A DNA stretch of 41,456 nt, from positions 1-41,456 of IMG/VR virus record IMGVR_UViG_3300027852_000079. One strand, given 5' to 3'. The stretch is from a virus. Below, piece after piece: positions 3,954 through 15,427 of this stretch (position 1 is its first letter; each line of letters starts with the position of its first letter). The position numbers were made by a program, and so were the translations under genes. The notes below the pieces were generated by a model. It saw only the letters and a list, made by a program, of their open reading frames with translations. It made no database searches and was not told where the DNA came from.

Positions 3954-4364
3954 TCAGAGCTGCTCGATCAGTGATCTGTTTGCTTCCAGAACCTTGCCGA
4001 GCAGCTTGTCATACCTCCTAAGGGTATCACAGTTCCATTCGGTCAAGTAATAGGTCAGTTCTGACTCGTCACGAATGATTACTGTGTATCCTCCGTCGAT
4101 GCAATCCACGCATCTAGGTGGATTGAGAAGGTTCCAAGCCGCTTCGTTGTCCGACCGATCTATCAACTCAGAACCCCTACAGATCTCGCTGATAAGCCTG
4201 TCGACTTGTCGTATCAAAACAACTTCACTGAGTTCTGCTCTGATAGCTTGTGACCCCTCAAGATCGATGGATAGTTGATATCCACCATCTTCCACACCCA
4301 GCCATACAGGAGCCCTCAGGTGGAGATGACAAAGATCGAGAAGTCTCATTACTTCCTTATTCAT
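3954..4364 (-). CDS. Unknown protein, 136 aa
   Basis: Not recognised. Acidic, with one CVDC pair in the middle (RCVDCIDGGYTVII) that could be half of a metal site or structural. AAAGGAACG precedes the ATG. The start overlaps the end of the DPPW methyltransferase by 8 bases, so it is probably co-translated. Confidence 0.65.
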   Translation of the reverse strand: MNKEVMRLLDLCHLHLRAPVWLGVEDGGYQLSIDLEGSQAIRAELSEVVLIRQVDRLISEICRGSELIDRSDNEAAWNLLNPPRCVDCIDGGYTVIIRDESELTYYLTEWNCDTLRRYDKLLGKVLEANRSLIEQL

Positions 4365-5100
4365 CTTGGTTCGTTCCTTTCTCCACCCGGCAACAAAACG
4401 GCTCTTCGACTTTCATGGGAGGATCTGAAGAGAACAAAACCCCTGGGGACAGGCGATCAACTGTTTCTTCACAATAGGATTTGTGCTCCTCTATCCCTAC
4501 CGCCCTTCGCCCATGGTCTATCGCAGCTCTGAGGGTCGTTCCTGAGCCACAGAATGGGTCCAGCACGACATCTCCGGGTTGCGTCAGATTGGCTACCAGC
4601 CAGGCCACATGCGTCAGGTACCTGACAGCAGGATGACCCTTGCCACGCCTGCTCTTCCATCCGATAGAAGACCGACTAGCAATCTTCTTGCCGGGGATCA
4701 GGGTCATTCCATCTGGTGACTCGTGAGACCCGAACACATAGGCTATGTCTCCACTGTTCAAGACAGTTCCACTATATTTTGGCACAGAATATTCGAGGTT
4801 ACATTGCCTCACAAATGGCATGCTCTCCGGGATGGCTCCGAGTATCCTGGGATCGCTTTGACACCCGAGGTGGATCACAAGGCGCCTGGCAAGCCTGGCA
4901 AGATCCGGACATACGGAAGCAAAGAGAGCAAAAGGAGAATGGCACTTCCAAGAATCCAGGAGATCCTTGGGTCCATTGGGCCACGGTGGATCTGTAATGA
5001 CGACAGTGTGTGCAGGATTGAGACACATCTGATTGAGAACAACTCTCGCGTCACCATGATAGAGAGTCACTCCTGCTTGCTCATGGAAGGGCTCAATCAT
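4357..5100 (-). CDS. DNA methyltransferase, DPPW type (amino-methylase)
   Basis: 247 residues from the ATG at 5100, which overlaps the upstream stop as ATGA; the longer open frame to 5286 lies inside the upstream gene. The catalytic motif DPPW (residues 37-40) precedes the SAM-binding motif DPFCGSGTT (181-189), the order of beta-class N6-adenine or N4-cytosine methyltransferases. VAWLVANLTQPGDVVLDPF is the usual lead-in. A role in protecting phage DNA from restriction is likely. The base and site methylated cannot be read from sequence. Confidence 0.85.
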   Translation of the reverse strand: MIEPFHEQAGVTLYHGDARVVLNQMCLNPAHTVVITDPPWPNGPKDLLDSWKCHSPFALFASVCPDLARLARRLVIHLGCQSDPRILGAIPESMPFVRQCNLEYSVPKYSGTVLNSGDIAYVFGSHESPDGMTLIPGKKIASRSSIGWKSRRGKGHPAVRYLTHVAWLVANLTQPGDVVLDPFCGSGTTLRAAIDHGRRAVGIEEHKSYCEETVDRLSPGVLFSSDPPMKVEEPFCCRVEKGTNQDE

Positions 5101-6026
5101 GGCTTCACCACCGGGAACTCTCTGATCAGGAGATCTTCTCGAGTTTTCACCTTCCCCGGTGATTGCTTGAAGAAAAATGGAACCCCAGCATTGAAACATT
5201 GATCCCTGATGAGACGAGCCCAAACAAACCACCAGCCATCCATACCTCGAGGCTTGGGTCCGGTCTCGCCCCCACATATCACCCAATCAATGCCCGTTGG
5301 GGCACCTACAGTGAAGGGCAAAGAATCTTCGACATAGCCCTTTTTTCGGCGTAATACATCAATTAAGATCGCATTGAGTCGATCACCGTATGGAAGACGA
5401 GAGAAGTCAATGGGTCCGAGGAGTGGCTCACAGCTTACAAACCGAATAGCAGCCGGGGCATGGATCAATGATGAGATACGCTCGTCAGCGCGCTCCTGGT
5501 TCTCGGCTGTAACGCCAAGCCAAACATTGGGCAGTGGCCATCGCGCGTTAGGATGCCTGATGTATTTTGATACATGCTTGCTAACATGATGGAGAAAGAG
5601 CTGATGAATTCTCCACTCTCTAGTGTCTGCTGAGAATATTCTCTTTCCATCTCCCTCTCTCTTTTCTACCCACTTGAACCACTCTAACATCCTCTCTGGC
5701 CTCTTAGTGAGGACTTGAAAGATATGCTGTGGGCACTGCGCCATAACCCCGAAAACCGATGCTATGAACATATTAGAGATGTCTGCATGAAAGAGATCGC
5801 CCATTGAACAAACAAAGATCTTTCTTGGCTTCTTCCATCGAAGTGGAACTTCAAGTTTGTCTGGGTGTGGCGTAACGTCAAACCCTGAGCCCTGAGGGTA
5901 CCCAAAGCGCCCGTTGAGCCGTCGCGCCATCCTTTGAGCATAGCAATTCTGACAGCCCTCTGAGGTCGGCTCACAGCCCGTCACAGGGTTCCACGTTTCA
6001 TCCGTCCATTGAATCTTAGTACTCAT
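5097..6026 (-). CDS. Phage Gp37/Gp68 family protein (DUF5131)
   Basis: 309 residues from the ATG at 6026. The N-terminus IQWTDETWNPVTGC and the Cys set C18, C25, C28 (TGCEPTSEGCQNCYA) are the signature of this family. Further conserved blocks are FVCSMGDLFH, VLTKRPERM, PNVWLGVTAENQ, RFVSCEPLLGPI and WVICGGETG. The cysteines resemble a radical-SAM-like iron-sulfur site, but the reaction is not established. The start overlaps the upstream gene's stop as ATGA, and the stop overlaps the methyltransferase start in the same way, so three genes are coupled. Confidence 0.9.
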   Translation of the reverse strand: MSTKIQWTDETWNPVTGCEPTSEGCQNCYAQRMARRLNGRFGYPQGSGFDVTPHPDKLEVPLRWKKPRKIFVCSMGDLFHADISNMFIASVFGVMAQCPQHIFQVLTKRPERMLEWFKWVEKREGDGKRIFSADTREWRIHQLFLHHVSKHVSKYIRHPNARWPLPNVWLGVTAENQERADERISSLIHAPAAIRFVSCEPLLGPIDFSRLPYGDRLNAILIDVLRRKKGYVEDSLPFTVGAPTGIDWVICGGETGPKPRGMDGWWFVWARLIRDQCFNAGVPFFFKQSPGKVKTREDLLIREFPVVKP

Positions 6027-12327: not shown

Positions 12328-12743
<416 letters not shown>

Positions 12744-13299: not shown

Positions 13300-13469
13300 G
13301 GGCGATGGGCCATGCCAGGGTCCGTGCTGTAACAAACGTGATTGAGATCTTCATCAGGTGGGCCAAAGAAGCCCAATCACATGGTGCTCATGAGGAAGCC
13401 AGGGTGCTTTTCTGTTTGGTCCTGATGATCACCGGGCAGTCCCTTTTGAAGGAGCCTGAACAGCCATGA
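13296..13469 (+). CDS. Unknown small protein, 57 aa
   Basis: GTG at 13296 overlaps the preceding stop, and an ATG nine bases on (13305) is the alternative. The frame runs MGHARVRAVTNVIEIFIRWA and EEARVLFCLVLMITGQSLLK to TGA at 13467, which overlaps the next ATG (ATGA). The central hydrophobic stretch FCLVLMITG is too short for a sure membrane helix. Fills what would otherwise be a gap in a tightly packed block. Confidence 0.6.
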   Translation: MRAMGHARVRAVTNVIEIFIRWAKEAQSHGAHEEARVLFCLVLMITGQSLLKEPEQP

Positions 13470-13927
13470 GAAACAGTGTAGAAGAGTTCTCAATGGGCGA
13501 TGCTGACGAATCCGTCAATATCTATCGCCATGGTGCGGTCGAGAGCATCGTCAGAGAGCTTATCGGTAATGACGACTTTGACGCCGATCCCGCATGGAAT
13601 ATCCAATATTATTACCATGGGAGGCACAAGAGTTGCCCCCTCTCTGAATACCTGAAAATGATCGGAGCCCGAACACATTGGGGGTTTGCGAGGTCCAAGG
13701 GTTCACAAATTCCATCTATACATATTTGGTTCACCGAAAATTGTACTTTCTCTGACCTCCTGTCCATGCTGGCCCATGAATACGCTCACATTGAATATCC
13801 AGATCATTGCAAGGCTCCAGATGCACCCTACATAAATGACCCTGAGAAGCGCTCGAACAGCTATGCGGACGTTGCCATCAAGGCCTGGAAAACAGCCAAG
13901 GAACTATGGAAGGGGGCTTCACGATGA
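13466..13927 (+). CDS. HExxH zinc metallopeptidase-like protein (ImmA/IrrE-like)
   Basis: 153 residues. LLSMLAHEYAHIEYPDH carries the zinc-binding HExxH (104-108) in a helix, followed after about 25 residues by EKRSNSYADVAIKAW, which could supply the third ligand. This matches the layout of ImmA/IrrE and SprT-like small metallopeptidases, which in mobile elements cut repressors. The partner repressor is not evident here, so the target may be host-encoded. ATGA overlaps at both ends. Confidence 0.7.
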   Translation: MRNSVEEFSMGDADESVNIYRHGAVESIVRELIGNDDFDADPAWNIQYYYHGRHKSCPLSEYLKMIGARTHWGFARSKGSQIPSIHIWFTENCTFSDLLSMLAHEYAHIEYPDHCKAPDAPYINDPEKRSNSYADVAIKAWKTAKELWKGASR

Positions 13928-14109: not shown

Positions 14110-14139
14110 ACTCATGAAACCAAGATCTCAAAGGTGGTC

Positions 14140-15417
14140 ATGAATGGCTTGGCTCTATGTGCCGGGGTTGGAGGTCTTGAACTCGGAATCAAGCTCGCCG
14201 GCCCAGGATACCGAACCGTTTGTTATGTCGAGGGGGAAGCCTATGCCGCCAGCATCCTTGTTTCGCGCATGGAAGATCAGACCCTGGATACAGCGCCTAT
14301 CTGGTCTGATCTTCGATCCTTCGACGGCCGCCCATGGCGTGGACTCGTGGATATCATCACTGCGGGATACCCATGCCAGCCGTTCTCGGCGGCAGGCAAG
14401 CGCCGAGGTGCAGACGATCCTCGCCACCTGTGGCCAGAGGTGGCGAGGATCATCGCCGAGACAGGGCCTGCTTTGGTCTTCTGTGAGAACGTCGGCGCTC
14501 ATCTGTCCCTCGGCTTCGAGCAAGTCAGCGAGGACATGGAAAGCCTGGGTTATCGGGTTGCGGCTGGAGTGTTCACGGCGTGGGCTATCGGCGCGCCCCA
14601 CATCCGGGAGCGGCTCTTCTGGCTCGCTACCTACACCGACGTGTGCCATGGAGACGATCCAGGACATGGAGCAAGCGCGCTATGCGGGGGACGACCCGAG
14701 GCGGCCAGCCTATCGGGACTGCCTGCCGACCCCGACTGTCCACGGCAACCACAATCGCAAGGGGGTGAGCCCAACATCTGGCGACGGCCTGGCCGTCGCA
14801 CTGGAACGTGGGACTGGCGGGAGGCTCCACCCGCCGTTTGTGGAGTGGATGATGGGGTGGCCTGTGAATTGGACCAGGGTGTGAACTATGAACGGTGGAG
14901 AGAGGAAGCGATGTGCTCATTGTGGGGAGATCATTCTGAACAAGAACTGGAAAGTGGCGAAATACTGCTCCCGGAAGTGTTCTGGGGAGAGCGCAAAACA
15001 CAAGAACCCCAGCAAGGACGCGATGAGGAAAAGGGCACAACGATCGGTACCCCTGGACCGGTGCGAGGTTTGCGGTACGACAGAGCGGCTTCAGAGGCAT
15101 CACCCGGATCTAGCCAAGCCGGACACGGCGATCGTGCTCTGTCAGGGGTGCCACACGACGACGCACACCGACGGGGGAACATGGGGGAAGGGACCGGAAA
15201 AAACGCGTGTGTGTGTGATCTGCGGCGCGACGTTTTTCCACGGGAAGACAACCACAAAGACGTGCGGCCCGAAATGTCTCGTCGAGTTAGGAAGAATGAA
15301 TGCTCGTCGTCGATGGGATGCCAGCGAGTGGACCGGATCAGAGCCTGTGGAAACGGAGTCGTACCGCAGGTGGCTGCACGAGCATTCGTTGAGTTGCTTG
15401 GTGAATTGCATGAGTGA
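14140..15417 (+). CDS. DNA cytosine-C5 methyltransferase carrying a 153-codon insertion
   Basis: 425 residues from the ATG at 14140. Motif I is LALCAGVGGLELG (4-16), motif IV PCQPFS with catalytic C79, motif VI ENV (116-118), motif VIII APHIRERLF (152-160), and the C-terminal motif X DRIRACGNGVVPQVAARAF. Before the last block, GVDDGVACELD is the expected lead-in and should join DRIRACGNG directly. It is instead separated by 153 codons of non-homologous sequence from the insertion 14876-15334. Because 459 is a multiple of three and has no stop in this frame, the enzyme still reads through; whether it is active is unknown. AAAGGTGG precedes the ATG. Confidence 0.85.
   Translation: MNGLALCAGVGGLELGIKLAGPGYRTVCYVEGEAYAASILVSRMEDQTLDTAPIWSDLRSFDGRPWRGLVDIITAGYPCQPFSAAGKRRGADDPRHLWPEVARIIAETGPALVFCENVGAHLSLGFEQVSEDMESLGYRVAAGVFTAWAIGAPHIRERLFWLATYTDVCHGDDPGHGASALCGGRPEAASLSGLPADPDCPRQPQSQGGEPNIWRRPGRRTGTWDWREAPPAVCGVDDGVACELDQGVNYERWREEAMCSLWGDHSEQELESGEILLPEVFWGERKTQEPQQGRDEEKGTTIGTPGPVRGLRYDRAASEASPGSSQAGHGDRALSGVPHDDAHRRGNMGEGTGKNACVCDLRRDVFPREDNHKDVRPEMSRRVRKNECSSSMGCQRVDRIRACGNGVVPQVAARAFVELLGELHE
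14144..14884 (+). CDS. Overlapping +1-frame ORF inside the C5 methyltransferase
   Basis: ATG at 14144 opens 246 codons (MAWLYVPGLEVLNSESSSPA...) in the +1 frame. The distal part, LPTPT...GDGLAVALERGTGGRLHPP and FVEWMMGWPVNWT, matches sequences I recall from phage proteins annotated as methyltransferases. The same bases in the main frame give GVDDGVACELD. The proximal Ser/Arg-rich part is familiar from many predicted phage proteins starting MAWLYVPGLE. It may be a genuine overprinted protein or a conserved shadow of the methyltransferase. The insertion adds a TGA here, truncating it. Confidence 0.4.
   Translation: MAWLYVPGLEVLNSESSSPAQDTEPFVMSRGKPMPPASLFRAWKIRPWIQRLSGLIFDPSTAAHGVDSWISSLRDTHASRSRRQASAEVQTILATCGQRWRGSSPRQGLLWSSVRTSALICPSASSKSARTWKAWVIGLRLECSRRGLSARPTSGSGSSGSLPTPTCAMETIQDMEQARYAGDDPRRPAYRDCLPTPTVHGNHNRKGVSPTSGDGLAVALERGTGGRLHPPFVEWMMGWPVNWTRV
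14876..15334 (+). mobile_element. 459-bp intragenic insertion with TGGACC at both edges
   Basis: TGGACC occurs at 14870-14875 and again at 15329-15334, exactly 459 bases apart. Removing one copy plus the intervening sequence joins GVACELD to RIRACGNG in the main frame and GWPVNWT to GSEPVET in the +1 frame, restoring motifs in both. The inserted DNA carries a zinc/HNH-like gene. A six-base target duplication or a homing-type event is inferred; there are no terminal inverted repeats. Confidence 0.6.
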
Positions 15418-15427
15418 TGAAGAATGA
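14888..15427 (+). CDS. Zinc-finger/HNH-like protein, C-terminus fused to the methyltransferase tail frame
   Basis: 179 residues. Three metal-binding-like units: CAHCG...KYCSRKC, CEVCG...RHHPD...LCQGCHTTTH, and CVICGATF...TCGPKC. The middle one has the Cys/His/His/Cys spacing of degenerate HNH nucleases, with the Asn position unclear. About the last 33 residues (WTGSEPVETESYRRWLHEHS) lie downstream of the insertion and are the +1-frame reading of the methyltransferase motif X. Its TGA overlaps the next ATG (ATGA at 15424). Likely a homing-type or DNA-binding protein; activity is unproven. Confidence 0.7.
   Translation: MNGGERKRCAHCGEIILNKNWKVAKYCSRKCSGESAKHKNPSKDAMRKRAQRSVPLDRCEVCGTTERLQRHHPDLAKPDTAIVLCQGCHTTTHTDGGTWGKGPEKTRVCVICGATFFHGKTTTKTCGPKCLVELGRMNARRRWDASEWTGSEPVETESYRRWLHEHSLSCLVNCMSDEE

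Follow-up and report, generated by a model that had tools for sequence, protein, structure and literature searches.

The window, that is, the whole 41,456-nt stretch of viral DNA that was analysed, carries on its plus strand a cytosine-C5 methyltransferase locus in which two long reading frames overlap. Both frames open, by direct reading, at the twin starts ATGAATG (14140..14146), with the ATG of the frame-0 product, alpha, at 14140 and that of the +1 product, beta, at 14144. The +1 frame upstream is closed by a TGA at 14141-14143, and a Shine-Dalgarno-like AAAGG (14130..14134), also found by direct reading 5 nt upstream of the ATG of alpha and 9 nt upstream of that of beta, is the putative ribosome-binding site for the two starts. 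The alpha subunit (14140..15417, frame 0) contains C5-methyltransferase motifs I to VIII, with the catalytic PCQ near 14371-14379, before an insert and motif X after it. The beta subunit (14144..14884, +1 frame), identified by its PHROG match and by a phase flip in its homologues, consists of a weakly constrained N-terminal half followed by a target-recognition segment and motif IX, after which the insert truncates it; its ORF spans 246 codons and ends with a TGA at 14882-14884. The motif IX-like LHPPFVEWMMGWPVNWT of beta (14825..14875) overlaps the alpha peptide GVDDGVACELD, and the same segment lies in frame 0 of single-chain relatives. An initial annotation made from the letters alone had read GVDDGVACELD in frame 0 and FVEWMMGWPVNWT in the +1 frame within 14830-14876; its coordinates and peptides were both correct, the two strings lying at 14842-14874 and 14837-14875. 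The insert of 459 bp, or 153 codons (14870..15328), is evident from a IX-to-X register of 425 nt versus -34 nt in 180 loci, and holds most of an ORF for an HNH endonuclease (14888..15427), which is in the beta frame, matches PHROG 1271 HNH at 6.6e-11, and has homologues at the same site. Past the insert, frame 0 reads (R)VDRIRACGNGVVPQ, which includes motif X of alpha, DRIRACGNGVVPQ (15331..15369, frame 0 again), assigned by direct reading and by its register against homologues. The +1 frame there reads WTGSEPVETESYRRW, from 15329. The initial annotation had given this peptide as the +1 reading after the insertion, downstream of a +1 ORF whose 246 open codons were borne out, but that ORF stops at 14882-14884, and WTGSEPVETESYRRW is the C-terminal end of the HNH ORF, outside beta.

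Several other features accompany the locus. The stop of the HNH ORF, or beta tail, overlaps the start of the next gene as ATGA (15424-15427), and through it the beta frame may also be coupled to that downstream gene. Upstream of the methyltransferase, a small protein (13466-13927) with HEYAH, an HExxH metalloprotease-like string, is without a PHROG match. Another, unrelated DNA methyltransferase is encoded on the minus strand at 4357-5286 (PHROG 67, 6e-25). Approximately 48 copies of the hexamer GACGAG occupy 12452-12737 and read as D/E-rich acidic or R/P-rich protein depending on frame and strand, possibly as a contingency or spacer repeat, and an 18-bp unit, CTGTCGCTCGAGGGCTTG, is present in 5.5 perfect copies at the extreme end of the record (1-99).

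Alpha matches the Pfam DNA_methylase family (PF00145, 3.3e-33), in a match that extends no further than motif VIII, as well as PHROG 363 (1.1e-55) and M.HhaI. Beta, 246 residues with PTPT strings and LHPPFVEWMMGWPVNWT, matches PHROG 1008 (7.4e-16), as do all 40 of the 40 homologues tested, whereas no Pfam or NCBIfam model matches it and a PDB search with beta gave no match. These assignments agree with the proposal of the initial annotation that two tails placed in different classes are readings of the same nucleotides, and named records annotate alpha, beta, or both. For beta alone, AlphaFold gave a poor model (mean pLDDT, 58.8), unfit for fold search. In single-chain phage relatives, LPTP strings, EWMMGWP, and GNGVVPQQ follow in that order in one frame, and the AlphaFold model of one of them, L222 (pTM 0.67), aligns with M.HhaI over 450 alignment columns with a TM score of 0.61 by target length and a high rmsd. 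Because of these relatives and the match of the L222 model to M.HhaI, the +1 segment of beta is predicted to be the counterpart of the target-recognition region together with motif IX.

Relatives of the +1 protein were found in at least 483 viral stretches and in 333 stretches in bacterial genomes, and the bacterial-genome loci that were kept are mostly alphaproteobacterial. Most of loci L001-L199 were retrieved by scanning with an alignment and with the +1 and frame-0 proteins. A separate beta alignment excluded proteins of annotated records. In a profile tally of these loci, which were largely fetched with the +1 protein, 192 of about 200, including the window, have the IX-like segment in the +1 frame and motif X in frame 0. 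Motif X shares its ORF with motifs I to VIII in 188 loci, and the distance from the end of the IX profile to the X profile is the -34 nt noted above in 180 loci. Where the frame-0 protein served as the seed in the first set, 11 of 12 loci show the same placement of IX in +1 and of X in frame 0. A second set, seeded with a single-chain methyltransferase, comprised 79 loci: in 50 of them IX falls in +1 and X in frame 0, another 11 are of the single-chain kind, and in 9 the +1 frame carries both motifs. In many second-set loci the +1 ORF starts within alpha, and full-length overlap thus belongs to the wider subfamily of the window. The overprinted layout is widespread in phages and prophages. In addition, in three phage C5 methyltransferases (L230, L233, and L237) one ORF carries motifs I to VIII and a second, overlapping one in +1 carries the target-recognition domain, IX, and X, a split that resembles M.AquI.

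The insert of the window is bounded by two copies of TGGACC, at 14870-14875 and 15329-15334, which are 459 bp apart, and the junction is ambiguous within this string. The insert-free loci L001 and L040 read uninterruptedly across the junction. In the beta frame the insert reads RV, TGA, 3 nt, and the ATG of the HNH gene, whose protein has flanking cysteine pairs like those of zinc ribbons and whose ORF end (15329-15424) runs through the former beta tail. The window HNH has no close relative among named phages or plasmids. In the alpha frame the insert comprises 153 codons without a stop, where 4.9 stops are expected over the HNH codons (P = 0.0015). With 153 extra residues before motif X, the alpha of the window may be impaired.

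HNH genes occupy the same IX/X junction in five lineages, including the window, and alpha is open in all five, with no stop in any insert against 2.8 to 4.9 expected in each (P = 0.0015, 0.027, 0.018, 0.02, and 0.01). Each of the insert lengths, 459, 405, 489, and 486 bp, is divisible by three. Locus L115, on the same contig as L204 and with L205 alike, has a 405-bp insert at this junction with a related HNH (45% identity), which starts 3 nt after the beta stop, behind AAGGAG. The alpha-frame reading to the left of this HNH, at L115:2137-2200, is SFSVWQRRMRNALYWL, which resembles the beta tail located downstream in +1 and suggests a duplicated, frame-shifted flank that arose during insertion. 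L203, a distant methyltransferase, has another HNH at the junction, with TAGATG. L250 and L265, from the frame-0 search, have inserts of 489 and 486 bp with a different HNH subtype and gaps of 27 and 9 nt. The five HNH lineages are scattered, and insert-free relatives exist.

Since the HNH gene adjoins the methyltransferase and is coupled with it, and HNH restriction enzymes exist, it could encode the cognate restriction enzyme of the methyltransferase and not a homing nuclease. This is distinctly unlikely, because the HNH gene is absent from nearly all relatives, lies within a gene at one conserved junction, and has phage HNH endonucleases as its best PHROG matches. A self-splicing intron or an intein, the removal of which would restore both frames, would account for the conserved insert site, and HNH genes are frequent in group I introns. 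The HNH ORF nevertheless takes up nearly the whole 459 bp, the insert lengths are multiples of three with alpha open in five lineages, and inspection of the alpha-frame insert revealed no intein motifs, which makes splicing very unlikely. An Rfam search of the window and L115 gave no intron match up to E = 1, with one unrelated weak antisense match, and a group I intron was rejected on the lack of a catalytic core in that search.

Taken by itself, the window has a +1 frame whose openness is only mildly unusual under synonymous permutation of alpha (P = 0.035). Over 188 loci, the same permutation predicts 324 stops in the +1 frame versus 7 observed, all of which fall in three loci with internal beta starts. 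Over motifs I to VIII the +1 frame has 0 stops versus 195 expected, and between VIII and IX alpha has 0 versus 420 expected, while the control third frames keep stops (526 versus 720 expected and 765 versus 651 expected). With one representative for each of 23 clusters, the corresponding counts are 0 versus 49.7 for +1 over I to VIII and 0 versus 52.6 for alpha over VIII to IX. In the AT-richer loci L009 (51% GC) and L035 (48%), the +1 frame is open where 5 to 6 stops are expected. The starts are also paired: in 163 of 169 loci, an alpha start precedes the start of beta by 4 nt (146 loci) or follows it by 2 nt (17 loci).

Difference rates at alpha codon positions were compared in 73 disjoint pairs, alpha position 1 being beta position 3. 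Over motifs I to VIII, alpha positions 1, 2, and 3 differ at about 0.08 to 0.11, 0.05 to 0.06, and 0.20 to 0.26, and in the tail at 0.128, 0.062, and 0.234, so that position 3 is the most variable in both regions. From VIII to IX the rates are 0.287, 0.109, and 0.093, and over motif IX they are 0.113, 0.054, and 0.064. Between VIII and IX, alpha position 1 is the most variable in 72 of the 73 pairs, with 148 of the 188 loci forming one cluster and the only three pairs outside that cluster in agreement; since this is beta position 3, selection on the segment acts mainly through the beta protein. The phase flips are abrupt: one falls at most 15 nt from where VIII ends, the other at most 15 nt from where IX ends. 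A patch 75 to 105 nt before the end of IX has alpha-type phase and may reflect the PPGPGDxxxW string that several alphas contain. Constraint on the beta tail beyond IX is of the alpha type only, and a stop there should cost beta little, which may be why the IX/X junction tolerates insertion. Changes at alpha fourfold sites over motifs I to VIII alter the +1 protein less severely than expected (z = 8.5 when those that create stops are excluded), and stop-creating +1 changes number 0 versus 83 expected. This mildness indicates that the N-terminal half of beta is itself under weak constraint. For alpha between VIII and IX, the mirror test gave z = 2.5.

The path of constraint from alpha to beta and back to alpha matches exactly what would be seen if a single polypeptide were made by programmed frameshifting, from frame 0 to +1 after VIII and back before X. 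Such a path, however, needs two shifts in opposite directions, and it leaves no reason for the unconstrained frame to stay open, as it does; the twin starts, and the internal-start members with upstream +1 stops, fit two products instead. A programmed double frameshift, rejected because both frames are open and the starts are paired, is therefore highly improbable. Least probable of the readings considered, and rejected in its pure form by the phase test, is that the +1 frame is a conserved but untranslated shadow of a GC-rich methyltransferase gene: the only mildly unusual openness of the +1 frame in the window alone, the dominance of alpha constraint over motifs I to VIII, and the mirroring of LALCAG by the N-terminal WLYVPG are in its favor, but the VIII-IX segment is constrained in the beta and not the alpha frame in nearly every pair, the +1 frame lacks stops across 23 clusters and in L009 and L035, and the same motifs are ordinary protein in single-chain relatives. 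The initial annotation had left the choice between a true overprinted gene and a conserved shadow open, naming +1 stops in homologues and a lack of +1 constraint beyond that of the main frame as signs against the gene. The homologues yielded neither the stops nor the lack of constraint, and the comparative tests favor the former option; the shadow option retains a part, in that beta over motifs I to VIII is weakly constrained and comes near to a shadow kept open. On this comparative evidence, the +1 frame is taken to be a true overprinted gene.

The preferred reading, to which we give a probability of roughly 0.87, is a two-polypeptide cytosine-C5 methyltransferase made from overlapping frames, laid out like M.EcoHK31I, with an HNH gene at the IX/X border. 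Motif placement, constraint switching, the openness of both frames, the paired starts, and the inserts are all directly visible in the sequences. Alpha would supply the cofactor-binding and catalytic motifs I to VIII, plus X, and beta the target-recognition segment and IX. A single ribosome-binding site may load ribosomes at either of the starts, 4 nt apart, and the two products would associate and jointly methylate DNA, probably shielding phage DNA from host restriction. A gene for a putatively homing HNH endonuclease has been inserted at the IX/X border, where the needed part of beta is complete and alpha gains only a loop; the small cost to beta of losing what follows IX may explain the tolerated junction. 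As the HNH lies in the beta frame, 3 nt past the beta stop, ribosomes finishing the truncated beta could reinitiate on its ATG, and alpha would be translated unspliced through the insert as far as motif X. Reinitiation requires short stop-to-start distances (PMC10666635), and four of the five lineages fit, whereas the 27-nt gap of L250 fits poorly. It is somewhat more probable than not that HNH genes repeatedly land at the IX/X border of overprinted phage C5 methyltransferases, take over the beta frame, and gain translation through reinitiation after the truncated beta, alpha being kept as one long unspliced frame. If true, mobile genes would settle inside a double-coded enzyme without splicing, and the translation of hidden HNH genes would have a concrete answer.

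Current annotation often covers only one of the two frames. Ten named loci were checked, nine in phages and one an E. coli prophage-like locus; seven have only alpha annotated (ABMM1, S9-5, BUCT711, where it is truncated, Zerg, Mel-JY01, PS-1, and E. coli PT62), two have only beta (Alfacinha3 and Ssp-JY39), and one, Paenibacillus Bloom, has both. In Acidovorax phage Alfacinha3 (L030), the gp46 "cytosine-specific methyltransferase" is the beta frame, and the catalytic alpha frame is unannotated. With one frame annotated in most named loci, methylation capacity is misread. The two-frame design was already known from one old bacterial enzyme, as was the kind of insert from the ShiLan domain. A literature search that covered few subscription papers found no account of a phage-wide spread of the overprinted design, and as far as searched, what is new is the phage spread, the paired start codons, the mapping of where constraint switches, and the HNH in the beta frame. 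Same-strand long overlaps selected in both frames are rarely documented in DNA phages, and the overprinted methyltransferase is one that hundreds of viral contigs and bacterial genomes share. Its alternating constraint offers a clean test bed for two frames sharing one DNA, and its stowaway HNH genes offer a testable route to the translation of hidden mobile nucleases.

Lee et al. in 1995 reportedly described the small gene of M.EcoHK31I as nested inside the large gene in another frame. In M.EcoHK31I, which recognizes YGGCCR, the large polypeptide holds motifs I to VIII and X and the small polypeptide motif IX, and the predicted target-recognition domain is in the large subunit (PMC3404938). 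By comparison with this published description, the large polypeptide here likewise has I to VIII and X without IX (192 loci, including the window), and the small polypeptide with IX is encoded in the other frame of the same DNA. The present enzymes differ in that constraint on the VIII-IX target-recognition segment falls mainly on the beta frame, for which reason they are described as working like M.EcoHK31I, as a variant and not a proven member; in addition, they are phage-borne, and the subfamily of the window starts beta together with alpha via twin starts. In M.AquI, motifs are also divided between two polypeptides, the small subunit having both IX and X (PMC3404938), whereas here X remains in alpha; the nine second-set loci with both motifs in +1 look M.AquI-like. 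The single-chain phage C5 methyltransferases (L013, L222, and Gordonia phage JKSyngboy gp4) share the same motifs, EWMMGWP (IX) and GNGVVP (X), but have every motif in one frame. The ShiLan domain is an out-of-frame HNH gene in a phage methylase, with the host frame open, no intron or intein, and a disjunct distribution (PMC11855218). The paper proposes leaderless initiation for want of a ribosome-binding site, makes no mention of cytosine or a subunit, and leaves the mode of translation open (PMC11855218). The insert of the window is similar in that its HNH lies in the +1 frame of alpha, adds no host-frame stop, and has no detectable intron or, by inspection, intein; it differs in that the host is an overprinted C5 enzyme and the HNH lies in the beta frame, starting beside the beta stop.
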